This document shows positions 1 through 20,489 of a stretch of DNA of 32,955 nucleotides, piece by piece. Location of the stretch: assembly GCA_938003685.1 (NCBI GenBank), contig CALKXT010000198.1:1-32955 (forward strand), given 5' to 3'. A program made the position numbers and the translations under genes. The notes under the pieces were generated by a model. It did not search any database. It was not told the DNA's origin and was given only the letters and a program-made list of their open reading frames with translations. The stretch comes from an uncultured Sulfitobacter sp. (GTDB taxonomy: Bacteria; Pseudomonadota; Alphaproteobacteria; Rhodobacterales; Rhodobacteraceae). Each line of letters begins with the position of its first letter. Position 1 is the stretch's first letter.

Positions 1-1139
1 TTATGACCCTCGGCGTACATATCAATGTCGTGACGCTTGCCGGGGTCTGCTTTTGAGCGGATGCCAGACAGACCCGCTGCGATGATGATCGCCTGCAACA
101 GATATGGATTCACCGCACCGTCTGGCAGACGTAGTTCAAAACGACCGGGGCCGGGGACGCGCACCATGTGTGTGCGGTTGTTGCCCGTCCAGGTCACCGT
201 GTTTGGTGCCCAGGTTGCCCCTGACATCGTGCGCGGTGCGTTGATACGCTTGTAGCTGTTCACCGTTGGGTTGGTGATTGCGGCCAAAGCAGAGGCATGT
301 TTCATGATGCCGCCAAGGAAATGCTTGCCGCGCTCTGACAGGCCAACTTCGCCAGTTTGTCCTTCGCCTTCACCAGCAAATACGTTGACTTTGGACTCTG
401 CACCGGGTGCATCCCAAACTGAAACGTGGGCGTGGCAACCGTTGCCTGTTAGCCCTTCGATTGGCTTGGGCATAAAGGTAACGCGGTAGCCGTGCTTTTC
501 AGCAACCGAACGTGCCATGAACTTGAAGAACGAATGTTTGTCAGCGGTCTTGAGCGCATCATCGTAGTCCCAGTTCATTTCCCACTGGCCATTCGCGTCT
601 TCGTGGTCGTTCTGATACGCGCCCCAGCCCATTTCCAGCATATAGTCGCTGATTTCACGGATCACATCGAGGCGGCGCATGAACGCCTGCTGATCATAAC
701 ATGGCTTGGCCGCGGTATCGTATTCATCACTGATCTGATCACCGGCAGGGGTCAGCAGGAAAAACTCTGCCTCGATGCCCGTTTTAACGTGCATGCCTTC
801 TTCGGCAGCTTCCGCAATCAGTTTGCGCAACACGTTACGTGGTGCTTGGGCTAGGTCTTTGCCTTCCATCACGCAGTTGCCCGGCACCCATGCGATTTCT
901 TTGTTCCATGGCAGGATGATCACGGCTTCTGGGTCCGGCACGGCCAGCATATCGGGGTGTGCTGGCGTCAGGTCGAGCCAAGTAGCAAATCCTGCAAACC
1001 CTGCGCCGTCTTCTTGCATGTCTGCAATCGCGCGGGCCGGAACCAGTTTAGCGCGTTGACCGCCGAACAGATCAGTAAAGGAGATCATGAAATATTTGAC
1101 GCCGTTTTCTTCGGCGAATTTTGCGAGGTCAGTTGCCAT
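1..1139 (-). CDS. gmaS: Gamma-glutamylmethylamide synthetase (glutamine synthetase family), 3' end cut by window
   Basis: Joins methylamine to glutamate using ATP, giving gamma-glutamylmethylamide, the entry step of the N-methylglutamate pathway in the cytoplasm. About 379 codons are visible; the family is usually near 440, so roughly the last 60 residues lie outside the window. The reading frame is open throughout and starts at ATG 1139 with an AGGGAA ribosome site about 9 bases upstream. Glutamine-synthetase signatures are visible: NDHEDANGQWEMNW in the first half, GNGCHAHVSVW near residue 230 (ATP/glutamate site), and NRTHMVRVPGPGRFELRLPD near residue 325. It is last in a minus-strand run after mgsA-mgsB-mgsC, and this neighbourhood separates GmaS from ordinary GlnA-like or GlnT proteins. 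Sequence alone would allow another glutamine-synthetase-like ligase. Confidence 0.88.
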   Translation of the reverse strand, partial: MATDLAKFAEENGVKYFMISFTDLFGGQRAKLVPARAIADMQEDGAGFAGFATWLDLTPAHPDMLAVPDPEAVIILPWNKEIAWVPGNCVMEGKDLAQAPRNVLRKLIAEAAEEGMHVKTGIEAEFFLLTPAGDQISDEYDTAAKPCYDQQAFMRRLDVIREISDYMLEMGWGAYQNDHEDANGQWEMNWDYDDALKTADKHSFFKFMARSVAEKHGYRVTFMPKPIEGLTGNGCHAHVSVWDAPGAESKVNVFAGEGEGQTGEVGLSERGKHFLGGIMKHASALAAITNPTVNSYKRINAPRTMSGATWAPNTVTWTGNNRTHMVRVPGPGRFELRLPDGAVNPYLLQAIIIAAGLSGIRSKADPGKRHDIDMYAEGH

Positions 1140-1214: not shown

Positions 1215-2561
1215 TTAGAATCCAGTGCCCGGCTTGCCGGGATACCAATCTGTCCCCGCCAGCGGAACTTTAGCCATTGCAGCGGCTTCCATTGTCAGTG
1301 CGACCAGATCCTCAGGTTCAAGATTGTGCAGGTGGTTTTTACCACAAGCGCGTGCGATCGTTTGCGCCTCAAGCGTCATCACTTTGAGGTAATTGCGCAG
1401 GCGACGACCGCCTTCAATCGGATCAAAGCGTTTCATCAATTCTGGGTCTTGAGTGGTGATGCCTGCCGGGTCTTTGCCTTCGTGCCAATCGTCATAGGCA
1501 CCCGCAGTTGTACCAAGAGCATTATACTCAGCTTCCCATTTAGGATCGTTGTCACCAAGCGCGATCAAGGCGGCCGTACCGATTGCAACCGCGTCTGCAC
1601 CAAGGGCCATCGCCTTGGCCACATCGGCACCTGTGCGAATACCACCGGACAAGATCAGTTGCACTTTGCGGTGCATGCCTAAGTCCTGAAGCGCTTGAAC
1701 AGCGGGGCGAATGATCGCAAGCGTCGGTTGGCCTACATGTTCGATGAACACGTCTTGGGTTGCCGCAGTCCCGCCTTGCATGCCGTCCAGAACAACTGCG
1801 TCTGCGCCTGCTTTGATCGCAAGCGTCGTGTCATAGTAGGGGCGTGCGCCCGCAACTTTGACGTAGATTGGCACTTTCCAACCTGTAATCTCGCGCAGCT
1901 CAAGGATCTTGATTTCAAGATCATCTGGACCTGTCCAATCCGGGTGGCGACAGGCAGAACGCTGGTCAATGCCTTTGGGCAGGTTGCGCATGTGCGCGAC
2001 GCGGTCAGAAATCTTTTGACCCAACAACATGCCACCACCACCAGGTTTGGCACCTTGGCCAACCACGATTTCGATGGCATCCGCTTTGCGCAGATCATCA
2101 GGGTTCATGCCATAGCGTGACGGCAGATATTGATAGACCAGCTTGTTGGAGTGACCGCGTTCTTCGGGGGTCATGCCGCCGTCACCTGTGGTGGTTGACG
2201 TTCCAGCCGCAGATGCGCCGCGACCCAAGGCTTCTTTGGCAGGACCAGAAAGCGCGCCAAATGACATGCCCGCGATGGTGATCGGGATATCCAGCTCAAT
2301 TGGGTTTTCCGCATGCAATCCGCCGATGGTCACAGAGGTTTCACATTTCTCGCGATACCCTTCCAAGGGATAGCGAGAGATGGAGGCACCCATAAACAGC
2401 AGATCATCAAAAGACGGTACTTTGCGTTTAGCACCGCCGCCACGAATGTCATAAATACCGGTCGCCGCCGCACGGCGGATGTCAGAATTCACATCTTGCG
2501 TGAACGTAGCCGACTGGCGTGGAGTCGTGTGGGGGATACCCTTTTCGTCGTGTTTGTTCAT
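1215..2561 (-). CDS. mgsC: N-methylglutamate synthase subunit C (GltB-like FMN domain protein)
   Basis: Catalytic FMN subunit of N-methylglutamate synthase, which makes N-methylglutamate from gamma-glutamylmethylamide or methylamine plus glutamate. The 448 residues match the FMN-binding synthase domain of glutamate synthase: GMSFGALSGPAKEALGRGA near residue 98, a KPGGGG motif, then a barrel with KVAGARPYYDTTLAIKAGAD and LSGGIRTGADVAKAMALGAD. Where GltB has the cysteine-rich stretch before GITTQDPEL, this protein reads AYDDWHEGKDPAGITTQDPEL, so the [3Fe-4S] ligands are missing. The ATG at 2561 has AAGGAT upstream, and mgsB ends 11 bases before it. It is the third mgs gene in the minus-strand operon. 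GlxD-type proteins of rhizobia are the closest alternative name. Confidence 0.87.
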   Translation of the reverse strand: MNKHDEKGIPHTTPRQSATFTQDVNSDIRRAAATGIYDIRGGGAKRKVPSFDDLLFMGASISRYPLEGYREKCETSVTIGGLHAENPIELDIPITIAGMSFGALSGPAKEALGRGASAAGTSTTTGDGGMTPEERGHSNKLVYQYLPSRYGMNPDDLRKADAIEIVVGQGAKPGGGGMLLGQKISDRVAHMRNLPKGIDQRSACRHPDWTGPDDLEIKILELREITGWKVPIYVKVAGARPYYDTTLAIKAGADAVVLDGMQGGTAATQDVFIEHVGQPTLAIIRPAVQALQDLGMHRKVQLILSGGIRTGADVAKAMALGADAVAIGTAALIALGDNDPKWEAEYNALGTTAGAYDDWHEGKDPAGITTQDPELMKRFDPIEGGRRLRNYLKVMTLEAQTIARACGKNHLHNLEPEDLVALTMEAAAMAKVPLAGTDWYPGKPGTGF

Positions 2562-2572
2562 GTTAGGTATCC

Positions 2573-3256
2573 TTAATACGCCGCAGCGTTATCAACATCA
2601 AAGTTGTAGAGATTGCGGGCAGAGCCGTAGCGGGTGAATTCGGATGGGTCAGCGTCAAAGCCTGCCTCATCCAACAGACCTTTGAGAATTTCCAGATGCT
2701 CTGGACGCATCTCTTTTTTCTCACAATCCGCACCCAGTGATTTGACCGTACCGCGCACAAAGAACCGCGCTTCATAGCAGCTGTCACCCAATGCATCGCC
2801 TGCGTCACCGCAGACCACAAGGTTGCCAGATTGGCCCATGAACGCAGACATGTGGCCGATGTTTCCCTGCACGACGATGTTGACGCCCTTCATGGAAATA
2901 CCGCAGCGTGATGATGCGTTGCCTTTAACAACGATCAAACCGCCGTGACCTGTGGCACCAAGATATTGGCTGGCGTCACCTTCAATGACGATCTTGCCGG
3001 ACATGATGTTTTCACCAGTGCCGGGGCCAGCTGATCCGTGAATGTTCACGGTCGCCTGTTGGTTCATACCGCCGCAATAATACCCAGTAGATCCTTTGAC
3101 TGTCACCTCGATAGGCGCGTCTAGACCACAGGCAATGGCGTGCGATCCGCGTGGGTTTACGATTTCCCATGCAGTTTGGTTGGTATCAGCAGACTGTGCA
3201 TGAAGCGTTTTGTTCGTTTCACGCAAGCCAACTTCGGTTAGGTCGATTGTTTGCAT
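2573..3256 (-). CDS. mgsB: N-methylglutamate synthase subunit B (GltB C-terminal GXGXG domain)
   Basis: A 227-residue protein equal to the C-terminal GXGXG beta-helix domain of glutamate synthase as a separate subunit, the structural partner of MgsA and MgsC. Repeated glycine-rich turns are visible (YYCGGMNQQATVNIHGSAG, MSGKIVIEGDASQYLGATGH, GGLIVVKGNASSRCGISMKG, IVVQGNIGHMSAFMGQSGN). A longer in-frame reading back to 3394 exists, but it would overlap the end of mgsA and its extra residues are unlike the family, so I place the start at ATG 3256 (MQTIDLTEVGL). That leaves one base between the mgsA stop and this start, implying translational coupling. GlxC is the equivalent rhizobial name. Confidence 0.86.
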   Translation of the reverse strand: MQTIDLTEVGLRETNKTLHAQSADTNQTAWEIVNPRGSHAIACGLDAPIEVTVKGSTGYYCGGMNQQATVNIHGSAGPGTGENIMSGKIVIEGDASQYLGATGHGGLIVVKGNASSRCGISMKGVNIVVQGNIGHMSAFMGQSGNLVVCGDAGDALGDSCYEARFFVRGTVKSLGADCEKKEMRPEHLEILKGLLDEAGFDADPSEFTRYGSARNLYNFDVDNAAAY

Positions 3257-3257
3257 A

Positions 3258-4187
3258 TTAAGCGGCCTTTTCGGTGGAGGTTGGGGCCGCATTGTGGCTC
3301 CAGAAATAGACGGTTGATGGCTCTGGTTCCCAAACGCGGGCGTTCTCGATACCCGGCAGGTCGACCAGCGCGCGATACTCTGATCCAAATGCAACGTATT
3401 GATCGGTCTCTGCCATCACAGCAGGTTTGCATGCGATCGGGTCACGGACCACGCCAAAGCCATCTTTGGTACCCACCAAAAAGGTAAAGAATCCATCAAG
3501 GTCATCAAGGCTGCTTTCCAGCGCTTCACCCAAGGTAGCGCCGTTCTGCATTTGCCATGTGAGGTAAGCGGCACCAACTTCAGTGTCGTTCTCGGTTTCA
3601 ATGTGGATGCCTTCGCGGCGCAGTTTGCGGCGCAGTGAATTGTGGTTGGACAGGGAACCATTGTGTACGAGGCACTGATCATCACCTGTGTTGAACGGAT
3701 GCGCGCCCATCGTTGTAACCGCAGATTCGGTTGCCATCCGCGTATGTCCAATGCCATGCGTGCCTGACATCTTTGAGATATCAAATTGGGCGGCGACGTC
3801 TTTTGGGAGGCCCACTTCTTTGTATATCTCAAGGCTGTCACCGCGGCTCATCACGCGGATACCCTTGTTTAAACCATTAATAACGGCACGTGCTTGGGTG
3901 GTAGTACCCGCTGGTATTTCAAGGATGGCATGGGTACTTTTGACTGCCATGGTGACATCGCCATCAAGCGCCTTAGAAAGCGTCTTGTCGAGATCAGCAA
4001 ATGCTGTGTCCGGCTCATCAGATTGCACAGTCATTTTGGTGCGACCCTTTGTTTCACCACCATAAATTGCGATCCCGGCACTATCAGGACCACGGTCCGT
4101 CATGGTGATCAACATCGATGTCAGCATCTCGCCTAACTTAGGCTCAAGCGACTTGTCCTTTAGGAACAATCCTACAATTCCACACAT
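3258..4187 (-). CDS. mgsA: N-methylglutamate synthase subunit A (class II glutamine amidotransferase domain)
   Basis: A 309-residue class II (Ntn-type) amidotransferase, the GltB N-terminal domain as a separate subunit. In N-methylglutamate synthase it would release methylamine or ammonia from the gamma-amide and channel it to MgsC. The start is set at ATG 4187 so the protein begins MCGIVGLF and Cys2 becomes the catalytic N-terminal nucleophile; an in-frame ATG two codons earlier (4193) would bury it. Other family motifs are MTDRGPDSAG, GTHGIGHTRMATES, HPFNTGDDQCLVHNGSLSNH and ENDTEVGAAYLTWQM. It is the first mgs gene. An upstream leader of about 150 bases with a dyad and a hairpin separates it from the membrane-protein genes. 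GlxB is the rhizobial counterpart. Confidence 0.87.
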   Translation of the reverse strand: MCGIVGLFLKDKSLEPKLGEMLTSMLITMTDRGPDSAGIAIYGGETKGRTKMTVQSDEPDTAFADLDKTLSKALDGDVTMAVKSTHAILEIPAGTTTQARAVINGLNKGIRVMSRGDSLEIYKEVGLPKDVAAQFDISKMSGTHGIGHTRMATESAVTTMGAHPFNTGDDQCLVHNGSLSNHNSLRRKLRREGIHIETENDTEVGAAYLTWQMQNGATLGEALESSLDDLDGFFTFLVGTKDGFGVVRDPIACKPAVMAETDQYVAFGSEYRALVDLPGIENARVWEPEPSTVYFWSHNAAPTSTEKAA

Positions 4188-4242
4188 GTTCATAATCCCG
4201 ACTCAGGATGCGGCAACAGCACCACATCAATTATTCAATACG

Positions 4243-4571: not shown

Positions 4572-5936
4572 TCAGGTTGCGCGAGCGGCAAGGTGTGCCT
4601 TGTCTGCTTCAATGATTTCAGCTTTGGCATCTTCGTATGCGTGGTGCTCTGCGTAATCGAGACCTTGCAATTCGACCTCTTCTGGAATGCGCAAGACGCC
4701 CAACTTTGACTGAAGCTTGGAAACGCCCCAACCCGGCAAGAAACCCAACACAAAGAACATGATCACTGCGCCTACGGCCTGACCCCAAGGCGTGATTGTT
4801 GCATAGCCTTCAAAGGGTGAAGACGGTGCGCCCCAAAGCAGGAAGCCTGCAATGATCAATCCAACAACACCAGAATAACCATGTACCGCAACCGCGCCTA
4901 CCGCATCATCAAGTTTGAACTTTTTCTCAACCCAGAAGTGCAGTTTGTACACGATCACAACACCGACGGCGCCAACCAGCATCGCCTGAATGGGGTGATA
5001 CAAATCGTTACCTGCAGAGGCTGTAATGATCCCGGCAAGACCGCCAGAGAATGTCCAGAACGCATCGCCCTTGGACACCAGATAAGCCGCCATCAAACCA
5101 CCCGAAAGTGACATCAAGAAGTTAAACGTGATCGCAGATAGTGTTGTAGGTGCCAGATAGATGTTTGTGGCAGTCCATGTGATGCCTGTAATCTGACCGC
5201 CAATGACTTCAGGTGCGATGATTGGCACGTTACACGCCGCATAAAAGCCCCAGAAACCTGTGTAGATCAAAAAGATACCAATCGCCAAAAGCCATGGGTT
5301 ATGTGGTGGTATGTCGCGCGGTGTGCCATCAGGGGCGAATTTGCCGATCCGTGGCCCGAGTACCATAATCACACCCAACGCATAGCCACCGGCAATCGCG
5401 TGGATAACACCAGATGCATAGGCATCGTGATAACCAAGATATTTGACCATCCAGCCACCATAGTGCCAGCCCCATGCTGCATCGATAATCCAAAACACGG
5501 AACCGATGAGAACGGCGTGGACCCAAAGGGCCGAAGATCGAATGCGTTCGATGACAGCACCGGACACGATTGAGGCCGCTGTCCATGAGAACAACAAGAA
5601 GGCCGCCCAGAAAACGCCAGTAATTCTGTCGCTGGAATTTGTGCCCATCGTTTCAGCCCACGGCAGGTTCGCTGCACCAGCTTCTAGATCGAGGCCACCA
5701 AAGAATGGGAACATCGGGAAGGCCCAATAAATCCACCACCCAAAGAAGAAGAACGTGACTGTGACCAATGGGATGATCATTACGTTTTTCATCAATGTGT
5801 GCATGTGGTTACGGCTGCGGCTTGCCGCAACTTCGTACATACAAAATCCAACATGGATTAAGAACATGAAGACCACGGTGACCCAATAATAAAATTCGGT
5901 AAACACGGTCGTCAGTGCGTTTAGATTACCTTCCAC
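4572..5936 (-). CDS. amt: Amt-family ammonium/methylammonium transporter (canonical pore)
   Basis: A polytopic inner-membrane channel/transporter of 454 residues with about eleven hydrophobic segments. Amt features are present: the acidic residue and first pore histidine in YHDAYASGVIHAIAGG, and the second pore histidine in VGAVAVHGYSGVVG. The PPHNPWLLAIGIFLIYTGFW segment matches the family's mid-protein helix. The start is GTG at 5936 with AAGGGAG about 8 bases upstream. It would move ammonium or methylammonium for GmaS/Mgs or recapture ammonium released from amines. The gene is followed closely by the 71-residue membrane protein. A terminator-like hairpin lies between it and amt2, so it may have its own promoter (candidate at about 5999-6027). 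Whether methylammonium is the true substrate cannot be read from sequence. Confidence 0.88.
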   Translation of the reverse strand: MEGNLNALTTVFTEFYYWVTVVFMFLIHVGFCMYEVAASRSRNHMHTLMKNVMIIPLVTVTFFFFGWWIYWAFPMFPFFGGLDLEAGAANLPWAETMGTNSSDRITGVFWAAFLLFSWTAASIVSGAVIERIRSSALWVHAVLIGSVFWIIDAAWGWHYGGWMVKYLGYHDAYASGVIHAIAGGYALGVIMVLGPRIGKFAPDGTPRDIPPHNPWLLAIGIFLIYTGFWGFYAACNVPIIAPEVIGGQITGITWTATNIYLAPTTLSAITFNFLMSLSGGLMAAYLVSKGDAFWTFSGGLAGIITASAGNDLYHPIQAMLVGAVGVVIVYKLHFWVEKKFKLDDAVGAVAVHGYSGVVGLIIAGFLLWGAPSSPFEGYATITPWGQAVGAVIMFFVLGFLPGWGVSKLQSKLGVLRIPEEVELQGLDYAEHHAYEDAKAEIIEADKAHLAARAT

Positions 5937-6120: not shown

Positions 6121-7485
6121 TCAGTTGTTGTCGGCGTGGGTCACAACATCAGGCTTAAGGCCCCAAATTTTCTCGTCTAGGCCATTGATCTGATCTTCTT
6201 CGCTGTTTTCCAAGCCAATCGTGGCCTTGAAGATCGTTGCCAAGATCAGGGCGGTGACAACACCAACGCCAACACACAAGGCAACACCCGCCACCTGCAT
6301 GACCAACGAAATCTCACCATGCTGGAATGCATATGGACCTTCTTCGATGCCCAGATAGCCACCGCGCGGTGTTCCTGCTTTGAAGATTCCCAAGAACAAC
6401 ATGCCAAAGGTGCCAGCCCCCAAGAACAATGGGAACAGTTTGTGTTCGTCGATACCGCGCTTGAGGGTGAATTCGTAAATGACGAAGGATACCAGCGGGG
6501 CCAACAGTCCAAGAACGAACGACTGCCAAGGTAGATAGACATCAAGCCCGGATGCGCCAGCAACATAACCTGCAAGCGGCCCAAGCAGCGTGTAAGCGTA
6601 GTTGCCAGATTTATATGCCAGCAACATGCCAGAAATCGCACCACCAGCCCAGACCAACGCATAGTTGTTCAATGAGATACCAACGCTGGTGTTCGCCATG
6701 GTTACACTTACGGCCAGCGCTTCGGGATCAAAGTAGAACAGGCACGACAGGATCACCATTGGCAAACCTGCAAAGATCAAAAGCAGGCCAGGCGCGCACA
6801 GGCCGATGCTGGGGGCGAGGTACGCAGATACGCGCGGGTGTTCGGTCATCATACCAGGGCGTGGTTTCATCATAAGGGTGAAAACCAATGCCATGCCGGC
6901 AGGGAATAGATAAACAAAACCGACACCAAAGAAGTCATGAAAACCTGCATTGGTCAAAGGCCCGACTGAGCCCCAAGTGGCATAGCTGAGTACAGAAGAC
7001 ACAACCGCGGCAACAACACAGGTGATGTAATAAGCAGATGCTTTCATGCGTTCAGAAACTGAGAAGTGGAGCAGTATGTTGATGATCCCTGCAAACACGG
7101 CAAGGAAGAAAACAAATATCTGAAAGGTGTTCAAACCGGGGAACACAGCTGGATCAGTCTCGTGTGCCAATGCATTGGTCAGACCGCCGCCCAGCCACCA
7201 ATCGTTGATCGCACCCATCATGGTGCCACCTTCCATGATATAATACTGCGCAGCCCAGATGCCAAACCCGACCATAAAATATGTTGCAAAGCCGATGAAG
7301 AAGCCAAGTGTTTTCTCAATCGTTGAGTTGAACAGGTTTTTACGGCGCGCTGTTCCCGCGTCGATCAGAAGCAGACCGACCACAACCAGAATTGCCCCAA
7401 CCGTACCTGAGGCATACACAAGGTTTTGTGTAAGCGAGTTTAGTGTAACTTGTGAGGCGTACACAGCGCCTAGATCTAGTGACAT
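6121..7485 (-). CDS. Divergent Amt-fold membrane protein lacking both pore histidines
   Basis: A 454-residue polytopic membrane protein that aligns along its length with Amt transporters: DAGTARRKN matches the family's GLVRRKN stretch, and SERMKASAYYITCVV matches FAERMKFSAY. The region of the first pore histidine reads FHDFFGVGFVYLFPAG, so VVH has become FVY while the preceding Asp is kept. The region of the second reads GIDEHKLFPLFLGAGTFG, with Leu where His is expected. The start at ATG 7485 has AGGAG upstream. It is first in the amt2-amt1-small-protein-mgs-gmaS direction and divergent from dmmD. It may be a transporter for methylated amines, a sensor, or a partner of the canonical Amt. The fold assignment is firm; the substrate is unknown. 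Confidence 0.8.
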   Translation of the reverse strand: MSLDLGAVYASQVTLNSLTQNLVYASGTVGAILVVVGLLLIDAGTARRKNLFNSTIEKTLGFFIGFATYFMVGFGIWAAQYYIMEGGTMMGAINDWWLGGGLTNALAHETDPAVFPGLNTFQIFVFFLAVFAGIINILLHFSVSERMKASAYYITCVVAAVVSSVLSYATWGSVGPLTNAGFHDFFGVGFVYLFPAGMALVFTLMMKPRPGMMTEHPRVSAYLAPSIGLCAPGLLLIFAGLPMVILSCLFYFDPEALAVSVTMANTSVGISLNNYALVWAGGAISGMLLAYKSGNYAYTLLGPLAGYVAGASGLDVYLPWQSFVLGLLAPLVSFVIYEFTLKRGIDEHKLFPLFLGAGTFGMLFLGIFKAGTPRGGYLGIEEGPYAFQHGEISLVMQVAGVALCVGVGVVTALILATIFKATIGLENSEEDQINGLDEKIWGLKPDVVTHADNN

Positions 7486-7643: not shown

Positions 7644-7728
7644 AAGTTGCTTCTTATTCTTGCTTTTTGATGTGGGCTGGGGCTGAATGTCGCGGAACAT
7701 AAAAGAGTCGAAAAACAGGGGAAGAGAC

Positions 7729-8877
7729 ATGGCCATACTTTGGAGACATTCCGTACTAGGGCAACGCCACGCTGAAATCGGTGGTGAGCTGGAAGATTGG
7801 AACGGCATGGGAACCGCATGGTTCTATGACCACACACCCGAACGTGCAAAAGCAGACTACGAGGCGATCCGTACCAAGGCAGGCCTGATGGATGTATCCG
7901 GCCTTAAGAAATTGCACATTACCGGTAAAGACGCCGCATATGTGATTGACCGCTGCACCACGCGAAATGTCGAAAAGATCGCGCCGGGCCGCGCGGTCTA
8001 TGCGGCGATGTTGAATGCTGACGGTAAGTTCATTGATGATTGCGTCATCTATCACCTCGCGGTGAACACGTGGATGGTTGTCATCGGTACGGGCACAGGC
8101 ATGGAATCGCTGGTGACTGTTGCAGCAGGCAAAGATTGTGCCGTGTTGTTTGATGATGATCTGCACGATATGTCGCTGCAAGGTCCATTGTCTGTTGATT
8201 TGCTGGCCGAAGAAATCCCTGCAATCCGTGACCTTGCCTATTTCGGCATCATGCAAACACGTCTGTACGGACGCGATGTGATGATCAGCCGTACAGGTTA
8301 TACTGGTGAGCGCGGTTATGAGATTTTCTGCCGCCGCAAAGATGCGATTCATCTGTGGGACAGCATTCTAGAAGCAGGCAAAGGCATGGGCGTGCGTCCT
8401 TGCCAGTTCAGCACGCTCGATCTGCTGCGCACCGAAAGCTATCTGTTGTTCTATCCCGGCGATAACTCAGAAACCTATCCGTTTGAGGATGGCAGCCCAG
8501 CGGGTGATACCCTGTGGGAACTAGGTTTGGAATTCACTGTATCTCCCGGCAAAACTGGGTTCATTGGCTCTGAAAACCACTATGCTGCAGAAGGCAAAGA
8601 GCGCTTTAAAATCTATGGTGTGTTGCTCGAAGGTAAAACACCTGCTGATGAGGGTGCAGACCTTTTGCAGGATGGCAAAAAGGTCGGGCATGTTACATTC
8701 GGCATGTATTCAGACGTGAACAAACACAACGTCGGTATCGCGCGGATGCCTGTTGCTGCGGCCACACCGGGCACCAAGCTAACGGTGCGCAATGGTGACG
8801 GTACAGAGATTGCTGCAACGGCAGAAGAAATGCCGTTCTATGATAAAGACAAATCCATTCGCACTGCGAAGGGTTGA
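7729..8877 (+). CDS. dmmD: DmmD-like, GcvT-family folate-dependent protein of dimethylamine oxidation
   Basis: A 382-residue aminomethyltransferase (GcvT) family protein. Next to a dimethylamine monooxygenase it most likely captures the methyl-derived formaldehyde on tetrahydrofolate, making 5,10-methylene-THF. Family features are RTKAGLMDVSGLKKLHITG near residue 50, ISRTGYTGERGYEIFC near residue 190, and a C-terminal barrel with VGIARMPVAAATPGTKLTV. An upstream in-frame ATG at 7687 would add 14 basic, polar residues; I prefer ATG 7729 because AGGGGAAG lies just before it and the protein then begins MAILWRHSVLGQRH. A DMSP demethylase (DmdA) or a GcvT paralogue is the alternative, and the three following genes argue against it. 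A stable hairpin separates it from dmmA. Confidence 0.82.
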   Translation: MAILWRHSVLGQRHAEIGGELEDWNGMGTAWFYDHTPERAKADYEAIRTKAGLMDVSGLKKLHITGKDAAYVIDRCTTRNVEKIAPGRAVYAAMLNADGKFIDDCVIYHLAVNTWMVVIGTGTGMESLVTVAAGKDCAVLFDDDLHDMSLQGPLSVDLLAEEIPAIRDLAYFGIMQTRLYGRDVMISRTGYTGERGYEIFCRRKDAIHLWDSILEAGKGMGVRPCQFSTLDLLRTESYLLFYPGDNSETYPFEDGSPAGDTLWELGLEFTVSPGKTGFIGSENHYAAEGKERFKIYGVLLEGKTPADEGADLLQDGKKVGHVTFGMYSDVNKHNVGIARMPVAAATPGTKLTVRNGDGTEIAATAEEMPFYDKDKSIRTAKG

Positions 8878-8961: not shown

Positions 8962-9564
8962 ATGTCAAAGTTCGACTTTCCCACTAGCATTTTAAGCCGT
9001 CCTGTTTACGGGACATTGGAACCGCGCCCCGGCGCTGCCCATCTATTCATAGCGGACGCCCATGGTGCCGAAGCAATTTTGGACGTTGCAGGCGTTGATA
9101 CCTCTTTGATGGCAAAAGCCCATGTGATCTACCTTCCGAATGGTGAGGGATATGGTGATGCGCTTCGGGCGCTAAAGCCCGCCAAGTATTACGAAGGTCC
9201 AAGTTATCCGGCCTCAGTCCAACGTATCCGTAAGGCGTTTGCGGATGCAAAGATGGGATTGCAGGTTTATCTGGCCGGCACCGAAGGGTTAATCGGCCAA
9301 GCCCAAAATGAGGCGATGCAAGCCGGTATTCCACACACCGCCATCCAGACCGAACATCGCGGATCAACCGCGCGACGTATGCAGTGCGTGCATTGTAAAG
9401 GCATCACTGAAAACGTGGAGACCGACCCGTTTGTGTGTGCGCACTGCGGTTTGAACTTGTTTGTACGGGATCATTATTCGCGCCGTTTGGCCGCCTATCA
9501 AGGCGTCTGTATCGATGCCGAAGACCCTGGCAATGTGCCTGCAGCGAAGGGAATTTACGAATGA
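8962..9564 (+). CDS. dmmA: Dimethylamine monooxygenase subunit DmmA
   Basis: A 200-residue small subunit of the dimethylamine monooxygenase (haem-dependent oxidative N-demethylase) complex. The first two-thirds resemble an electron-transfer or reductase-like domain (VYLAGTEGLIGQAQNEAMQ). The C-terminus has two CxxC pairs, MQCVHCKG and FVCAHCGLNLF, about 20 residues apart, as in a zinc-ribbon or rubredoxin-like metal site, followed by a conserved-looking DHYSRRLAAYQGV tail. ATG 8962 has AAGGAA upstream. The stop overlaps the dmmB start (ATGA). Assignment rests on the CxxC tail and the dmmD-A-B-C order known from roseobacters and pseudomonads. Confidence 0.82.
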   Translation: MSKFDFPTSILSRPVYGTLEPRPGAAHLFIADAHGAEAILDVAGVDTSLMAKAHVIYLPNGEGYGDALRALKPAKYYEGPSYPASVQRIRKAFADAKMGLQVYLAGTEGLIGQAQNEAMQAGIPHTAIQTEHRGSTARRMQCVHCKGITENVETDPFVCAHCGLNLFVRDHYSRRLAAYQGVCIDAEDPGNVPAAKGIYE

Positions 9565-10523
9565 GCGGTGCAGAAAAAATTGCCGTCAAAGTGACAGATG
9601 TCGTGCCGCTGAATGACCTTGTTACGCGGTTCAAGTTTGAGCGCACGGATGGCGGACTGCTGCCAACTTTTTCTGGCGGCGCACATACAGTTGTTGAAAT
9701 GAACGATGGTGGTATCACCCGTTTGAATCCCTATTCGCTGATGTCTGATCCGATGGATCAAAGCGCCTATACGATTTCTGTACGGCGTGACGACGAAGGG
9801 CGCGGCGGGTCATTGTTTATGCACAAACAGGTGAAGGTTGGGGATGAGATGGTGATCTCGTATCCCGTTAATCTGTTTTCCCTAGACCTGCGGGCCAGAA
9901 AGCATCTGTTTATCGCGGGCGGCATTGGCATCACGCCTTTCCTTGCTCAGGTCAAGCAGCTTGAGCGGTTCAATGGGAACTGGGAATTACATTATTCCTG
10001 CCGTTCAGAAGCGCTGGGATCGTATGTGGGTGAGTTGACGGATCATCACCCAAATGAAACCCACATCTATTATGACGATCAAAAGCAAATGATTGATCTG
10101 GCACATCTGCTAGATGGTCAACCGCTGGGCACGCATGTCTATGTCTGTGGTCCCAAGGGCATGATCGACTGGGTACGCAAGACCGCTGCTGCCGAAGGCT
10201 GGCCGCGCGAGGCTATCCATTACGAGGAATTCCTTGCACCACAGCCGGGCAAACCGTTTGAAGTGAAGCTCGCGATCAGCAACAAAATCATCCAAGTGGG
10301 TGAAAGCGAAAGCTTGCTTGAAGCGATGGAGCGTGAGGGCGTTGATGCGCCTTATCTGTGTCGCGGTGGCGCTTGCGGGCAATGCGAAACCGATGTGATC
10401 GATTATTCTGGTAACTTCATCCACCGTGATCATTGGCTGGACGATGCAGAACATAGCAGCGGCAAAAAGATCATGCCCTGCGTTTCACGATTTGAGGGTA
10501 AGACCCTTGTGTTGGACAGGTAA
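9561..10523 (+). CDS. dmmB: Dimethylamine monooxygenase reductase subunit DmmB (flavin/[2Fe-2S])
   Basis: A 320-residue phthalate-dioxygenase-reductase-type protein that passes electrons from NAD(P)H through flavin and a [2Fe-2S] cluster to the haem subunit. Domains in order: a flavin-binding barrel with RLNPYSLMSDP near residue 53, a nucleotide-binding domain with FIAGGIGITPFLAQ near residue 118 and YVCGPKGMIDWV near residue 195, and a C-terminal plant-type ferredoxin domain with CRGGACGQC and a fourth Cys in MPCVSR. A longer reading from 9435 exists, but ATG 9561 gives a proper N-terminus and a 4-base ATGA overlap with dmmA. It is translationally coupled to dmmA and followed 9 bases later by dmmC. 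Confidence 0.88.
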   Translation: MSGAEKIAVKVTDVVPLNDLVTRFKFERTDGGLLPTFSGGAHTVVEMNDGGITRLNPYSLMSDPMDQSAYTISVRRDDEGRGGSLFMHKQVKVGDEMVISYPVNLFSLDLRARKHLFIAGGIGITPFLAQVKQLERFNGNWELHYSCRSEALGSYVGELTDHHPNETHIYYDDQKQMIDLAHLLDGQPLGTHVYVCGPKGMIDWVRKTAAAEGWPREAIHYEEFLAPQPGKPFEVKLAISNKIIQVGESESLLEAMEREGVDAPYLCRGGACGQCETDVIDYSGNFIHRDHWLDDAEHSSGKKIMPCVSRFEGKTLVLDR

Positions 10524-10532
10524 GGGGCCATC

Positions 10533-11600
10533 ATGACCATTCAGTTTAACGACGAAACATTCCGCGACGATTATTCGTTCTATAATTCTGATCGCGCGAT
10601 CAAGCGCTTTCCTTTTCCGTTCCATGAAGACAGCTATATGTATTCGGTGAACATGGAACAGCACCGCGGCGGCCCGGTCGATTCCATCTATGAAAAACGC
10701 TTTGACGTTGACGAACACTATTTGTCCGAGATGCGTGACCGCGCGATGGTATTGGCGGATGATCCGCTGCGCTGTCAATCGCTGCCACACATGACTCTTG
10801 CAGGCTGGGATCTGCTGGAACTGATTATGGTGTCAAAATCTGAAGACTACCCAGATCTGTTTGAATTGCACCGTGATGGCAACAAATGGCGTTGGATCAA
10901 CAAGCCGATGGGCATTGATGACACGTTCACGTTTCTGGATGAAGCGACGCTGCCTTACGGTCCAATGGAATATATCACCCGTCAAGCACAGGGCGATTTT
11001 GCCGTGCTTGATCAACGTGACGACAACCTCTGGATGGATGCCGGGATGATCACAACACAGGCGGATTGGTCGCTTGATTTTGATCTGGGCATGAACTTCT
11101 TTGAATGGCACGCGCCTGTGCCTTTGGCGCATGAAAAGGGTATCTTTATCCGCGCCCTCAAGTTCCTTTTGAACATCCAACAAGGTGCGCCTGCGCGGCG
11201 TCTGAACTGGACAATGACGGTAAATCCTCTGCTGGATACCTCGCCCGAGAACTATCACAAATGGGGTGTCCAAAAGACTGAAATCGCGCCTGAAAACCTT
11301 GGCTCAAAACAGCATTTGCGCGTTGAGCTGCAAACCTTTTTCCGTTTGCCGCGCTCCAACGCGCTGGTGTTCCCGATCCGTTGTTATCTGTGCAGCTTTC
11401 AGGACTTGATGACTGTTCCAAAATGGGGCCGCCGTTTGCACCGTGTTATTCGGGATCTGCCCGAAGAACTGGCAACCTACAAAGGGTTTATCGACAACCG
11501 TCCGATGATGTTGGATTACCTTTCAAAGTTCGATGATGGGCAACCAACGTCGGATGGCATCTGGCCAGACCTTGAGACTGAACCGGCGCTGAAAAAGTAG
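10533..11600 (+). CDS. dmmC: Dimethylamine monooxygenase haem subunit DmmC (DUF3445 family)
   Basis: A 355-residue DUF3445 protein. This family includes the haem-binding PAS-like catalytic subunit of heme-dependent oxidative N-demethylase, which oxidises dimethylamine to methylamine. Visible features are an aromatic, acidic N-terminus (DDYSFYNSDRAIKRFPFPFH), the LPHMTLAGWDLLELIMVS region near residue 85, and long Trp/Arg-containing stretches (RALKFLLNIQQGAPARRLNW; LRVELQTFFRLPRSNALVFP). ATG 10533 has a strong GGTAAGGGG ribosome site. The haem ligand cannot be pinned down by eye. Gene order and length fit the dimethylamine monooxygenase complex well. The next gene (DUF1194) starts only 6 bases after the stop. 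Confidence 0.85.
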   Translation: MTIQFNDETFRDDYSFYNSDRAIKRFPFPFHEDSYMYSVNMEQHRGGPVDSIYEKRFDVDEHYLSEMRDRAMVLADDPLRCQSLPHMTLAGWDLLELIMVSKSEDYPDLFELHRDGNKWRWINKPMGIDDTFTFLDEATLPYGPMEYITRQAQGDFAVLDQRDDNLWMDAGMITTQADWSLDFDLGMNFFEWHAPVPLAHEKGIFIRALKFLLNIQQGAPARRLNWTMTVNPLLDTSPENYHKWGVQKTEIAPENLGSKQHLRVELQTFFRLPRSNALVFPIRCYLCSFQDLMTVPKWGRRLHRVIRDLPEELATYKGFIDNRPMMLDYLSKFDDGQPTSDGIWPDLETEPALKK

Positions 11601-13121: not shown

Positions 13122-14126
13122 ATGCCTACTGATAAAAATATTGACATTGGTTTCCTAATCTTCCCCGGTTTTCCGATGGCGTGTCTGACGTCGATGATAG
13201 AACCCCTGCGTGCTGCGAATGAAATTGCCGGTCAAGATTCGTTTAGCTGGAAATTGGTTTCTGAGGACGGCCAGCGTGTCGAGGCTAGTGCCCACGTTTG
13301 GTTTGAACCAGACTACGCGTTGGATGATTGTGATGACCTTGATCAGCTTTTCCTGTTGAGTGGGCCGTCATCAAGGTTTGCGAATGCTCATACATCTGAT
13401 GGCAAACTGCGCAAACTTGCGCGCCACGGTGTCACAATGGGGGCGGTTAGTGGCGGTGTATTTCCACTGGCACGTGCGGGCTTGTTGGAGGGGCACGTAA
13501 CATCGGTGCATTGGTGCTATGAGGCGGCATTTGCGGCGGAATTCCCGAAACTTGATGCGACTGAAGATGTGATTGTGTTGGATCGCCGGCGCCTTACGGC
13601 ATCTGGGGCAGCCGCTGCATTTGATCTTTCGCTACATCTAATCGAATCGTCATTGGGGGCGGATGTGGCCACAGAAGTTGCGTGTTGGTTTCAGCATCCA
13701 ATGGTGCGGGGGCAGGGGGTTAGTCAGCGCAAACCGACGTTCGCGACAGAAAGCACCAGTGACATGTTGCCCACTGCCGTGCGTAAGGCCGTCGATATCT
13801 TTGCGGACCATATGGAAGATCCAATCAATATTGCGGACGTTGCTGATGCGGTTGGCGTGTCTGCACGTCAACTTGAGCGAATGTTTCACAAGGCAACTGG
13901 CACAACGCCATTGGGCTATTACAGGTCGCTTCGTATGCACAAAGCGCGGCAATTGCTGTTGTATAGCAAAGACACAATGATCCAGATCGCAATTGCTGTT
14001 GGGTACGCGTCATCTTCCACGATGAGCAAAAACTACATCGAAGTGTTTGGAATACACCCGTCTGAGGACCGCAAAAAAATCAATATGTTCCGCGTGCGCG
14101 AAAATGCGATTGTGCCGTCTGCTTAG
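13122..14126 (+). CDS. GlxA-family transcriptional regulator (DJ-1/PfpI-like domain plus AraC-type HTH)
   Basis: A 334-residue activator-type protein. Residues 7-190 resemble a DJ-1/PfpI glutamine-amidotransferase-like ligand domain (IGFLIFPGFPMACLTSMIEP; GAVSGGVFPLARAGLLEGH; SVHWCYEAAFAAEFP). The C-terminal third is an AraC-type double helix-turn-helix (INIADVADAVGVSARQLERM and IQIAIAVGYASSSTMSKNYI). Relatives such as GbdR and CdhR sense glycine betaine or carnitine derivatives, so a methylated-amine ligand is plausible. The gene is divergent from the XRE-cupin regulator and converges on mgdD, overlapping its end by 4 bases. ATG 13122 has only a weak AGGA upstream. Confidence 0.88.
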   Translation: MPTDKNIDIGFLIFPGFPMACLTSMIEPLRAANEIAGQDSFSWKLVSEDGQRVEASAHVWFEPDYALDDCDDLDQLFLLSGPSSRFANAHTSDGKLRKLARHGVTMGAVSGGVFPLARAGLLEGHVTSVHWCYEAAFAAEFPKLDATEDVIVLDRRRLTASGAAAAFDLSLHLIESSLGADVATEVACWFQHPMVRGQGVSQRKPTFATESTSDMLPTAVRKAVDIFADHMEDPINIADVADAVGVSARQLERMFHKATGTTPLGYYRSLRMHKARQLLLYSKDTMIQIAIAVGYASSSTMSKNYIEVFGIHPSEDRKKINMFRVRENAIVPSA

Positions 14127-14686
14127 GCGACGGATTTCGCTGCTGTAATCAATGCGTGATGCAGGGTCGCTGCTGATGCACGTGGGCCAAAGACGCGGAT
14201 GTGATCATCGGCTTCGCGCCGAATGACAAAACAACCAAGCTGATGAATGACCGTGCGTTGTGCGTCCCCGGACTGCATCTGGCGAATTGGCACACCGCAC
14301 AGACGTTCGCACATCTCTGGCATTGCAGGACCCGTGATATCAAAACACACCCAAGCGCCGCTTTGTTCGGTCACAGATGCTGCGTCACCCAGCAAGTCTT
14401 TGAGCGTATCGGCTAGCAATTCGTGACTGGCCTTTGGCGCGCCGATCATCCACTGGTCTGGCCCCATCCAAAATCCTGCTTCTGGGTCATGTAATTGCGC
14501 GCGACCTGGCCCTGGAACAGCACCCAGCAGCTTTTTCAGCGCAGCATGACAGGCCTTTTCATGCCCCATGCGTGCCGCAACAGAGGCAAGTGCGACGCCA
14601 TCATTTTCAGTGATTGTCACATGAGGGAACGTGTTGATTTGTGGTTCAGTGCCACCAAGCGCAGTTGTTGAAATGAGATCATGCAC
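14123..14686 (-). CDS. mgdD: N-methylglutamate dehydrogenase gamma-type subunit (sarcosine oxidase gamma family)
   Basis: The smallest folate-side subunit of the sarcosine-oxidase-like N-methylglutamate dehydrogenase, 187 residues. Family features are DPEAGFWMGPDQWMIGAP near residue 75, GAWVCFDITGPAMPEMCERL, and a C-terminal RREADDHIRVFGPRASAATL. The longest reading begins at a TTG (14728) deep inside mgdC. I prefer GTG 14686 (giving MHDLISTTALGG) because GAGGGGG lies about 9 bases upstream and the overlap with mgdC shrinks to 8 bases. It is last in mgdA-B-C-D. A heterotetrameric sarcosine oxidase SoxG is the main alternative, and the gmaS/mgs context favours N-methylglutamate. Confidence 0.82.
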   Translation of the reverse strand: MHDLISTTALGGTEPQINTFPHVTITENDGVALASVAARMGHEKACHAALKKLLGAVPGPGRAQLHDPEAGFWMGPDQWMIGAPKASHELLADTLKDLLGDAASVTEQSGAWVCFDITGPAMPEMCERLCGVPIRQMQSGDAQRTVIHQLGCFVIRREADDHIRVFGPRASAATLHHALITAAKSVA

Positions 14687-17624: not shown

Positions 17625-17908
17625 TTGCTGCGCCCCCGGCTGCGGGCCACATCGCGGGCCATTTCCACCTTGGAAATCTCATGGGTCAGGGTGTTGCGGG
17701 TCACAACCAACCATGACCGATCACCAGCCTCGTGGAACCACAATTCGTCATGCCAACCCGCAGGGTTTTCCCGCAGATAGCCGTATTCGTAAAAATCACG
17801 TGCCGCTGTCTCAGAACTCGCATCAGGACGGTCGATCAAACGCGCATCGCCCATATAGGTGAATTCAGCACTGTCACGCGGGCCAAGAAGGGGGTGTTCA
17901 ATAATCAT
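17621..17908 (-). CDS. mgdB: N-methylglutamate dehydrogenase delta-type subunit (sarcosine oxidase delta family) without the usual zinc ligands
   Basis: A 95-residue small subunit. It aligns with sarcosine oxidase delta: GPRDSAEFTYMGDARLIDRP, DFYEYGYLRENPAGWHDELW, TRNTLTHEISKVEM. In characterised sarcosine oxidase delta, zinc is held by CPxC at the N-terminus and by a His and Cys in WxHxxGC. Here the N-terminus reads MIIEHPLLGPR and the second motif WFHEAGDRSW, so three of four ligands are replaced and only the His remains (a second His sits near the first Cys position). The gene starts 34 bases after mgdA and overlaps mgdC by ATGA. Loss of the zinc site fits a functionally distinct enzyme, but I cannot say whether it is general to MgdB. 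Confidence 0.82.
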   Translation of the reverse strand: MIIEHPLLGPRDSAEFTYMGDARLIDRPDASSETAARDFYEYGYLRENPAGWHDELWFHEAGDRSWLVVTRNTLTHEISKVEMARDVARSRGRSK

Positions 17909-17942
17909 ATTTGTTCATCCGTTCGCATTCTTACCAACATGC

Positions 17943-19193
17943 TCAATGCAAGTTGGGCTGATTGCCCATCCCTTTTTCATCGATCATCAGGCCTTTTTCG
18001 AACCGGTTAAATCGATATGCGGTGGCGGTTGGGTGCGGCTCATCTTTGGCCAAGAGGTGCGCAAAACAGAAACCCGATGCGGGCGTTGCTTTGAACCCAC
18101 CATAACACCAACCACCGTTGAAATAGAGCCCGTCGATATGGGTGCGGTCGATAATAGGCGATCCGTCCATCGACATGTCCATGATCCCACCCCACATGCG
18201 CAACAGTCGGGCGCGACCAATGGCGGGTAATATCGCCATGCCGCCTTCGCAGACGTCTTCGACTACAGGCAGGTTGCCGCGTTGAGCGTAAGAGTTGTAG
18301 CCATCAAGGTCGCCACCAAAGACAAGGCCACCTTTGTCAGATTGACTGCAATAAAAGTGACCCGCGCCAAAGGTGATCACGCCGGGTAGCACAGGTTTTA
18401 AGCCCTCGGAAACAAACGCCTGCAAGACATGGCTTTCCATTGGCAGTCGCATGTCGGCCTTAGACATCAAGCGGCTGGACGACCCTGCGACGGCACAGCC
18501 GACCTTGCCTGCACCAATGAAGCCGCGTGATGTTTCCACGCCAAGGCATTTGCCATTCTCTATCCGAAATCCGGTGACTTCGCAGTTTTGAATGATATCA
18601 ACGCCCCGGCTGTCTGCGCCGCGCGCATAGCCCCATGCAACCGCATCATGGCGCACGGTGCCACCCCGATGCTGGGCAAGCCCGCCTTTGATTGGGAAAC
18701 GCGCGTCTTCGGTGTTTAGAAACGGATACCGCTTTTTGATCTGTTCCGTGGTCAGCATCTCAGCGTCTGCGCCATTCAGCATCATCGCGTTTCCGCGCCG
18801 TACAAAGGCATCGCGTTGCGCATCGCTGTGGATCAGGTTCAAAATGCCACGCTGAGAGATCATCGCGTTGTAGTTAAAGTCTTGCTCTAGCCCTTCCCAC
18901 AGCTTCAGGGAGAATTCATAAAACGGCTCATTGCCATCCAACAGGTAGTTAGAGCGAATGATTGTGGTGTTTCGGCCGACATTGCCGCCACCGATCCAGC
19001 CTTTTTCAAGGACAGCGATGCGTTTCTGTTTATACTCTTTTGCAAGGTAATACGCCGTCGCTAGGCCATGCCCGCCACCGCCAATGATGATAATATCATA
19101 ATGCGCCTGCGGTTCTGGGTCGCGCCACGCGGGTTTCCACCCTTTGTGACCCGTCAATGCCTCTTTTATAACTTTGAAACCCGAATAGCGCAT
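17943..19193 (-). CDS. mgdA: N-methylglutamate dehydrogenase beta-type subunit (sarcosine oxidase beta family)
   Basis: Substrate-oxidising flavoprotein of 416 residues. The N-terminus MRYSGFKVIKEALTGHKGW is typical of the family. The FAD motif is IIIGGGGHGLATAYYLAKEY near residue 35, and RHDAVAWGYARGAD near residue 180 holds the His that carries covalent FMN in sarcosine oxidase. The open frame continues to 19373, and ATG 19202 is also possible, but AGAGGA lies 8-9 bases before ATG 19193 and length then matches relatives. It is first in the minus-strand mgdABCD operon, divergent from tmoX across a 280-base region with two dyads. N-methylglutamate is inferred as substrate from the gmaS-mgs neighbours; sarcosine is the main alternative. 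Confidence 0.85.
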   Translation of the reverse strand: MRYSGFKVIKEALTGHKGWKPAWRDPEPQAHYDIIIIGGGGHGLATAYYLAKEYKQKRIAVLEKGWIGGGNVGRNTTIIRSNYLLDGNEPFYEFSLKLWEGLEQDFNYNAMISQRGILNLIHSDAQRDAFVRRGNAMMLNGADAEMLTTEQIKKRYPFLNTEDARFPIKGGLAQHRGGTVRHDAVAWGYARGADSRGVDIIQNCEVTGFRIENGKCLGVETSRGFIGAGKVGCAVAGSSSRLMSKADMRLPMESHVLQAFVSEGLKPVLPGVITFGAGHFYCSQSDKGGLVFGGDLDGYNSYAQRGNLPVVEDVCEGGMAILPAIGRARLLRMWGGIMDMSMDGSPIIDRTHIDGLYFNGGWCYGGFKATPASGFCFAHLLAKDEPHPTATAYRFNRFEKGLMIDEKGMGNQPNLH

Positions 19194-19335: not shown

Positions 19336-20415
<1,080 letters not shown>

Positions 20416-20443
20416 GATCTTGCTAACTGATTAATACCATTAT

Positions 20444-20468
20444 CCCCGTCCGGTTTTTCCGGGCGGGG
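20444..20468 (+). repeat. Intercistronic hairpin after tmoX
   Basis: CCCCGTCCGG (20444-20453) and CCGGGCGGGG (20459-20468) form a 10-bp stem with one U-G pair around a five-T loop, between tmoX and tmoW. No T run follows. Stem-loops after binding-protein genes commonly raise the level of that message over the downstream transporter genes. Confidence 0.6.
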
Positions 20469-20489
20469 AACTTTCTCACAAGGATCGCC

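Follow-up and report, generated by a model that had tools for sequence, protein, structure and literature searches.

In a 32,955-nt stretch of DNA from an uncultured Sulfitobacter sp. (contig CALKXT010000198.1 of assembly GCA_938003685.1; hereafter the window), a gene named here P1 encodes a protein with the fold of the Amt ammonium transporters in which both histidines of the conduction pore are replaced, one by tyrosine and the other by phenylalanine. P1 lies in a cluster of methylated-amine genes, beside a second Amt gene named here P2. Since every relative of P1 that was checked sits in a genome encoding the trimethylamine-oxidizing enzyme Tmm, P1 probably serves as an entry route for methylated amines and not for ammonium. 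We assign a probability of roughly one half to the reading that P1 is a substrate-shifted Amt, which would form a pore for methylated amines, most likely for trimethylamine, and feed Tmm. An initial annotation made from the sequence alone had proposed a methylated-amine pore, a sensor or a hetero-oligomer partner of the neighboring Amt; the pore is now the best supported of these three options, and co-occurrence across genomes proved strongly positive for dmmC and equally so for tmm.

P1 has an Amt fold and is under strong constraint

The P1 gene and its pore residues map as follows.

6121..7485, minus strand: P1 (P0001), Amt-fold protein with the twin histidines replaced by Tyr192 and Phe354 (Pfam, structure model, alignments)
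6910..6912, minus strand: Tyr192, codon TAT, at the position of AmtB H168 (alignments)
6424..6426, minus strand: Phe354, codon TTC, at the position of AmtB H318 (three alignments)
6934..6936, minus strand: Asp184, codon GAC, at the position of AmtB D160, kept (alignments)

The open reading frame (ORF) starts with ATG, a few bases downstream of a GGAG motif, and encodes 454 aa; the plus strand is interrupted by stops in the P1 frame. A profile scan of the 454 aa returned PF00909 as the single Pfam match (1.1e-33, 117 bits against a cut-off of 23.2, residues 32-441), which places P1 in this superfamily, and revealed no fused output domain. The NCBI ammonium-transporter model TIGR00836 gave 119 bits, under its cut-off of 343.3. 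An AlphaFold2 model built from 30 aligned sequences (predicted local distance difference test, pLDDT, 75.9; predicted template modeling score, pTM, 0.80) matched solved bacterial and archaeal Amts with Z scores of 36-40, including 38.4 for AmtB (2ns1; root-mean-square deviation of 2.8 Å over 384 residues), versus 31 for RhCG. Its closest solved folds include the receptor Amts 8qj3, 8qj4 and 6eu6. Judging from this model, P1 is an Amt fold across nearly its whole length, and it retains the C-terminal GLD segment of Amts.

The ratio of nonsynonymous to synonymous substitutions (dN/dS) was 0.04-0.07 between P1 and three orthologues, pairs in which dS is near saturation, and 0.06-0.08 in three closer pairs. 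These values rule out a pseudogene or a decaying gene and indicate that P1 is under purifying selection. At two of the loci described below (L041 and L043), the P1 gene is split across two frames. Around P1 and P2, promoter-like sites were not above chance (3 versus 4.1 expected); terminator-like sites numbered 7 versus 3.6, none of them between the two genes.

Both pore histidines are replaced throughout the P1 family

We aligned 56 P1-family rows (48 distinct) and 59 rows of P2 and its P2b relatives (55 distinct), some genomes being reached twice. Rows shorter than 380 aa were dropped beforehand (L039 P2, L040, L041, the first part of L043, L044 and L109 P2b), and the duplicates L051 and L077 P1 as well as loci L048-L050, L052, L053, L056 and L065 were left out. 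The initial annotation had stated that the Amt layout and the Asp before the first pore position are kept, and that both pore histidines are replaced, by Tyr and Leu. The first statement is borne out by the PF00909 match, the similarity to AmtB and the presence of Asp184 in all 56 rows. As for the second, neither position holds a histidine and Tyr192 was confirmed, but the residue at H318 is Phe354 rather than Leu355. Although a quick MAFFT alignment, the first made, put Leu355 there, MAFFT L-INS-i, profile-profile alignment with hhalign and HMMER alignment to chain 2npg, which itself has Phe at 318, agreed on Phe354.

Tyr at H168 and Phe at H318 were found in 56 of the 56 P1-family rows; the twin-His pair in the sense of TIGR00836 (H168, H318) is thus missing. 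Because both residues are invariant in these rows and dN/dS is 0.04-0.08, loss of the histidines is more than chance. F107, W148 and D160 are retained in every row. In contrast, in the MAFFT alignment W212 is replaced by Leu in 56 rows, the inner gate residue F215 by Val in 55 and Ile in 1, and S219 by Cys in 56, so that P1 lacks both the complete Phe gate (F107/F215) and Trp212 and Ser219 of the ammonium sites. The roles of these residues in the S1 and S2 sites of AmtB and in the Phe gate are those given in passages of PMC10433425; the other papers below are likewise cited for individual passages. The assignments at W212, F215 and S219 are less sure than those at the histidine positions, since hhalign opens gaps in this stretch, which MAFFT aligns ungapped; the Cys common to the P2 group backs the MAFFT version.

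Four aromatic residues, F131, W171, Y192 and F354, are invariant in a 27-row P1 alignment. A relocated pore histidine was considered and rejected: the invariant His140 in helix 3 pairs with AmtB V116 in a gap-free stretch of the alignment and, by helix geometry, falls off the pore-lining face, so we claim no displaced histidine.

In passages of PMC7447429 and PMC3647058, replacement of the first histidine by Glu in fungal Meps is given as the sole natural variation of the pair, or the sole common one. A conserved bacterial family without both histidines and without the inner gate residue contradicts these statements and provides a natural test of the role of the histidines.

P1 occurs in genomes that encode Tmm

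Of the 292 genomes sampled from the order, 11, belonging to 7 of 112 genera, contained P1 in a search with a profile built from 27 P1 rows (E<=1e-30). Elsewhere, none besides the window's own P1 was found in 289 genomes of the class (E<=1e-25) or in 100 genomes of the phylum (E<=1e-12), an absence of distant relatives that is partly due to a narrow profile, its 27 rows being similar to one another. Scanning 84,980 species for a peptide pattern yielded 45 P1 loci, rich in Leisingera and Mameliella. Their titles name almost exclusively genera of the Rhodobacterales, together with one Enemella and three metagenome-assembled genomes (MAGs) with general names only. The order sample and the 45-genome set have 4 genomes in common. 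We also found three P1 relatives on plasmids, all annotated "ammonium transporter".

Within the order sample, tmm was present in 57 genomes, dmmC, of the dimethylamine genes, in 59, and both in 50. The link of P1 to TRIMETHYLAMINE was strict, as all 11 P1 genomes fall among the 50 with tmm and dmmC (hypergeometric p of 7e-9 for tmm and 1e-8 for dmmC, without kinship correction), and P1 occurred in 0 of the 7 tmm-only and 0 of the 9 dmmC-only genomes. All genomes of the 45-genome set carry tmm and 44 carry dmmC, the miss being the MAG of L012. Therefore, the co-occurrence with dmmC that the initial annotation had proposed to check was observed (11/11 and 44/45), and P1 occurred only with tmm (11/11 and 45/45). 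These tests cover the 292-genome sample and the 45-genome set.

P1, tmm and dmmC are all absent from the other 14 sampled genomes of the window's genus, which suggests that the methylated-amine cluster of the window (positions 1-23489) was acquired in this lineage by transfer. The genome from which the window comes is a draft with a completeness of 84.6%.

P1 most often neighbors tmoR and tmm

The stretches around the 45 P1 loci contain tmm in 33 cases, tmoR in 32, a binding-protein-like gene in 31, mgdA in 13, tdm in 12, dmmC in 9, gmaS in 4 and P2 in 2. P1 lies directly upstream of tmoR at 29 loci. The commonest neighbors of P1 are thus tmoR, the binding-protein-like gene and tmm, rather than gmaS and the dmm genes, and the arrangement in the window, where P1 stands between P2 and dmmD as it also does at L002 and L057, is unusual among the loci. 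Twelve loci have no tmm nearby: nine from Leisingera, with about 10 kb on each side, and three at contig ends (L002, L012 and L040). According to PMC13390433, TmoR (SPO1553) is the repressor of tmm and itself recognizes its effectors, dimethylamine and trimethylamine N-oxide (TMAO), and TmaR (SPO1584) is the master activator.

In Ruegeria pomeroyi (L017), P1, tmoR, the binding-protein-like gene, tmm and TMAO-transporter-like genes are found in one stretch, with P2 about 30 kb away and about 3 kb from dmmC. The R. pomeroyi tmm product scores over the cut-off of NCBIfam NF058570, and the tdm product of L001 is also over its NCBIfam cut-off. A 27-kb stretch of the Ponticoccus alexandrii plasmid p-SCP4 holds gmaS-like, mgs, P2, dmm and tmm (NF058570, over cut-off) genes, the binding-protein gene, a regulator of the FCD type and P1; both Amts are annotated "ammonium transporter" there, and tdm and mgd are not in that stretch.

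The binding-protein-like gene near tmoR and tmm encodes a Peripla_BP_6 protein (L017:12264-13598, minus strand, and 30 other loci). By eye it has no obvious signal peptide, and it is possibly a cytoplasmic ligand-binding regulator.

P2 belongs to a group of Amts tied to methylated-amine genes

The neighboring Amt gene maps as follows.

4572..5936, minus strand, GTG start: P2 (P0002), Amt with the twin histidines intact, W212F and S219C (Pfam, TIGR00836, alignments)

The initial annotation had called this neighbor a canonical Amt that keeps both histidines. The histidines are indeed present (H179 and H352), but "canonical" is too strong: P2 scores 189 bits against TIGR00836, under the cut-off of 343, and carries F228 at the W212 position and C235 at the S219 position. 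W212F and S219C with intact histidines were found in 59 of 59 aligned rows of P2 and P2b. The P2 group occurs in 56 of the 292 genomes of the order (E<=1e-60), 53 of which have tmm or dmmC. Close relatives are 69-100% identical to P2, P2b proteins 44-48%, and one further protein (L120) 34%. In several clusters, P2 or P2b lies between mgsA and dmmD. P2 is not a housekeeping Amt but a member of a group tied to methylated-amine genes.

In contrast, E. coli AmtB, the other two Amts encoded by the window's genome and nine Amts from plasmid records all retain W212, F215, the two histidines and Ser or Thr at 219; the nine were hand-picked from two plasmid searches rather than drawn at random. The window's genome thus holds four Amts in total; one of the other two adjoins a PII-like gene recognized by eye. 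Since two Amts with standard residues are present, P1 is not needed for ammonium.

P1 and P2 share about 21% identity. In a tree of 35 rows, the P1 sequences form a single clade with full support, whose branch measures 6.1 changes per column; branch and identity together rule out P1 as a recent duplicate of P2. The clade falls on the P2/P2b side and not with the three housekeeping-type Amts, in a tree with a midpoint root only and with a program warning that long branches meet here. In these comparisons, the Amts tied to methylated amines have altered ammonium sites, P1 going furthest.

We observed other unusual Amts in the course of this survey. A second Amt without both pore histidines (L120:2510-3886, minus strand), from another genome of the family (G034:C35), has Ala and Phe in their place and Leu at W212, and directly follows two branched-chain-type ABC permease genes. 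Its matches at E<=1e-60, in 24 of 283 genomes of the order, are, besides itself, all P2-type Amts of 33-35% identity. Two plasmid Amts annotated "hypothetical protein", from Methylobacterium sp. DM1 (L140:5962-7356) and Aminobacter niigataensis DMFA1 (L141:5959-7317), keep the twin histidines and have Ala or Thr at F107, Leu at W212 and Thr or Val at 219. The DM1 gene is about 1.4 kb downstream of a dimethylformamidase-like gene and also lies beside branched-chain-type ABC transporter genes, such as those that the DMFA1 gene follows. A P2b-type Amt on a Pseudomonas aeruginosa plasmid record (LT969519.1; L142:2956-4233), 53% identical to the P2b of L107 and with W212F and S219C, is near a gene annotated betaine aldehyde dehydrogenase. 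At the level of sequence, these cases hint at repeated remodeling of Amt pores in the vicinity of genes that act on methylated nitrogen compounds.

P1 as a candidate pore for trimethylamine

We propose that P1 would be a membrane pore, presumably trimeric, admitting methylated ammonium ions, most likely trimethylammonium. Without the histidine relay, which P1 cannot use given that changes of the AmtB histidines abolish transport, it would not deprotonate NH4+ to NH3 in the manner of AmtB. Instead, F131, W171, Y192 and F354 may hold the alkylammonium by cation-pi contacts, like the aromatic boxes between which trimethylamine moves in TmaT (PMC11708041), and uptake would be driven by the membrane potential and by trapping through Tmm. 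TMAO would enter by its own ABC transporter, encoded in the same cluster, and P2, with its histidines kept, would serve the smaller mono- or dimethylammonium. We expect trimethylamine to be preferred over dimethylamine because the P1 gene is found far more often with tmoR and tmm than with dmm, a preference read from synteny only. A remade pore is favored over a dead one since the changes are fixed, the constraint is strong, all P1 finds were in tmm genomes, and the P2 group, which is tied to the same pathway, is altered at the same ammonium sites while retaining its histidines. More tentatively, P1 may be the first recognized Amt branch whose natural substrate is trimethylamine (or dimethylamine), passing the intact alkylammonium along the invariant aromatics without a histidine relay; together with P2 and P2b it would make up a stepwise retuned series and provide the missing trimethylamine uptake step of marine Rhodobacterales.

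Several observations weigh against this reading. Neutral amines can cross membranes unaided. P1 is dispensable, as 39 of the 50 sampled genomes with tmm and dmmC have none. The nine Leisingera loci have no tmm, tmoR or dmmC within about 10 kb on each side, and P1 is about 450-520 kb from tmm in G181 and G285. The tie to dmmC is as strict as that to tmm, so that occurrence alone cannot separate trimethylamine from dimethylamine. Furthermore, the H168A/H318A change stops both ammonium and methylamine transport by AmtB, and all of 14 engineered AmtB histidine variants but H168E are without methylamine transport (PMC3647058); Tyr and Phe in P1 could therefore equally mean a closed pore. Single His-to-Ala changes retain ammonium and lose methylamine transport in assays (PMC3647058), and an acidic pair turns AmtB into an intact-cation channel whose preference for ammonium over methylammonium is unchanged (PMC9040831). 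Since the residues at the histidine positions are bulkier, a wider pore is not evident either.

The strictness of the dmmC tie is also an argument for a different amine: P1 could conduct dimethylamine or monomethylamine, inward or outward, its tie to tmm arising from methylated-amine genes that travel together. This alternative, which we consider unlikely though the nearest of the competitors, agrees with dmmC in 11/11 and 44/45 P1 genomes, with the place of P1 between P2 and dmmD in the window and at L002 and L057, and with dimethylamine and TMAO as the signals answered by TmoR (PMC13390433), encoded just after P1 at 29 of 45 loci. However, tmm is linked at 33 of 45 loci and dmmC at 9, and P2 and P2b, placed between mgsA and dmmD in several clusters, are better candidates for the smaller amines. 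Abolished transport in the absence of the twin histidines in AmtB (PMC3647058) would also fit a non-conducting P1 subunit that tunes mixed trimers with P2 or a housekeeping Amt, as RhD and RhCE do beside RhAG. Mixed Rh complexes exist (PMC3832391), P1 adjoins P2 in the window, L002 and L057, and the retained C-terminal GLD segment would suit such a partner. Yet P1 and P2 are far from recent duplicates, and P2 relatives are found in 34 of the 45 P1 genomes (E<=1e-60) and in 8 of the 11 P1 genomes of the order sample, missing in G092, G185 and G258. Because the 11 misses of the larger set comprise 8 titled isolates, next to 3 possibly incomplete MAGs, a fixed P1-P2 heteromer is unlikely to be the general role of the family, although the hetero-oligomer considered by the initial annotation might still form in this cell; nor is a fixed pair supported by gene order, P2 lying in the stretch around P1 at 2 of 45 loci. 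We regard mixed trimers of any kind as a somewhat weaker contender than passage of the smaller amines.

Lower in probability is a sensor (transceptor) of external methylated amines that would signal to TmoR or to the binding-protein-like neighbor. The position of P1 directly before tmoR at 29 loci, the binding-protein fold encoded by the conserved gene between tmoR and tmm and the receptor Amts among the closest solved folds are in line with it. On the other hand, the sensor role raised by the initial annotation gained no positive support, since P1, with one Pfam match, has no output domain; moreover, TmoR is reported to recognize its effectors itself (PMC13390433) and no tmoR adjoins P1 in the window. 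Finally, it is very improbable that P1 has kept ammonium as a substrate, for instance to let out what amine breakdown releases, even though the Amt fold and the S1 residues F107, W148 and D160 are kept and methylamine-degrading Rhodobacteraceae pass ammonium to diatoms (PMC7574528). A natural ammonium transporter without both histidines is unmentioned in passages of PMC7447429 and PMC3647058, two other Amts of the cell have the standard residues, W212, F215 and S219 are changed in P1 too, and no ammonium-site residue beyond F107, W148 and D160 supports export.

Other features of the window

The window also encodes the following components of methylated-amine metabolism.

7687..8877, plus strand: dmmD, aminomethyltransferase-like (GCV_T; name from the literature order dmmDABC)
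8962..9564, plus strand: dmmA (DmmA-like; NF041259 over cut-off)
9561..10523, plus strand: dmmB, ferredoxin-NAD reductase-like (Pfam; name from gene order)
10533..11600, plus strand: dmmC, heme-dependent oxidative N-demethylase alpha-like (PF11927; name from gene order)
3258..4193, minus strand: mgsA, glutamine amidotransferase-like (Pfam; name from gene order)
2573..3256, minus strand: mgsB (GXGXG; Pfam; name from gene order)
1215..2561, minus strand: mgsC, glutamate synthase-like (Pfam; name from gene order)
1..1139, minus strand: gmaS, incomplete at the edge of the window (TIGR03105, type III glutamate-ammonia ligase, over cut-off; name from the literature order gmaS-mgs)
13122..14126, plus strand: AraC-type regulator occupying the tmaR position between dmm and mgd (positioned as SPO1584, PMC13390433; candidate TmaR only)
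14123..19193, minus strand: mgdDCBA, N-methylglutamate dehydrogenase (soxB and soxA models over cut-off; SoxD; last subunit weakly GCV_T; names from gene order)
19474..23489, plus strand: tmoXWV-like TMAO ABC transporter (87, 79 and 76% identical to genes beside tmm in R. pomeroyi L017)

In the DmmB-like reductase (9561-10523), the NAD-binding half is also recognized by the Pfam model of the DmmA-like N-terminal domain (57 bits, cut-off 33), so that DmmA and DmmB seem to share a domain. A separate ORF at 31292-32200 on the minus strand (302 aa, without a Pfam match) lies between two metabolic genes and has a G+C content of 46.8% versus 52.4% for the window; it is a possible insertion.

Comparison with known systems

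P1 shares with E. coli AmtB its fold, the Asp160, Phe107 and Trp148 positions and the C-terminal GLD segment. It differs in the replacement of both histidines, Phe215 and Trp212, in Cys at Ser219, in an identity of about 20% and in having been seen only in tmm genomes among those tested. With P2 and P2b it has in common Cys at S219, the link to methylated-amine genes and a His before Asp160, the last also present in 2 of the 9 control Amts; unlike P1, from which a very long branch separates them, P2 and P2b keep the twin histidines and Phe215. They are named "ammonium transporter" in records and probably correspond to the "amtB" or "amt" of published cluster figures, passages of PMC5520151 and PMC7574528 giving these names as figure labels without stating which Amt is meant. 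We found no description of an Amt without both histidines in a methylated-amine cluster in passages of open-license PMC full text, which mostly excludes subscription journals.

The L120 Amt resembles P1 in lacking both histidines and in Leu at W212. It differs in its position in the tree, where a long branch of its own groups with P2 (subject to the long-branch warning), and in having no methylated-amine enzyme shown beside it. RhD and RhCE also lack the twin histidines. They belong to the same fold family as P1, and RhCE was solved in complex with RhAG (title of 7uzq). However, no Rh chain was among the 14 P1-profile matches at E<=0.01, and no P2 partner was found in 11 of the 45 P1 genomes.

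A parallel in proposed substrate is TmaT, a Na+/trimethylamine symporter of the BCCT family, with which P1 would share trimethylamine and aromatic residues to bind it, although the two proteins belong to different families, P1 matching PF00909 only. TmaT and MttP are the two proteins implicated in microbial trimethylamine transport in passages of PMC11708041. If P1 carries trimethylamine, it would be a third protein beside these two, and the reading of "ammonium transporter" genes in marine genomes and transcriptomes would change, since the three plasmid relatives of P1 are annotated under that name.

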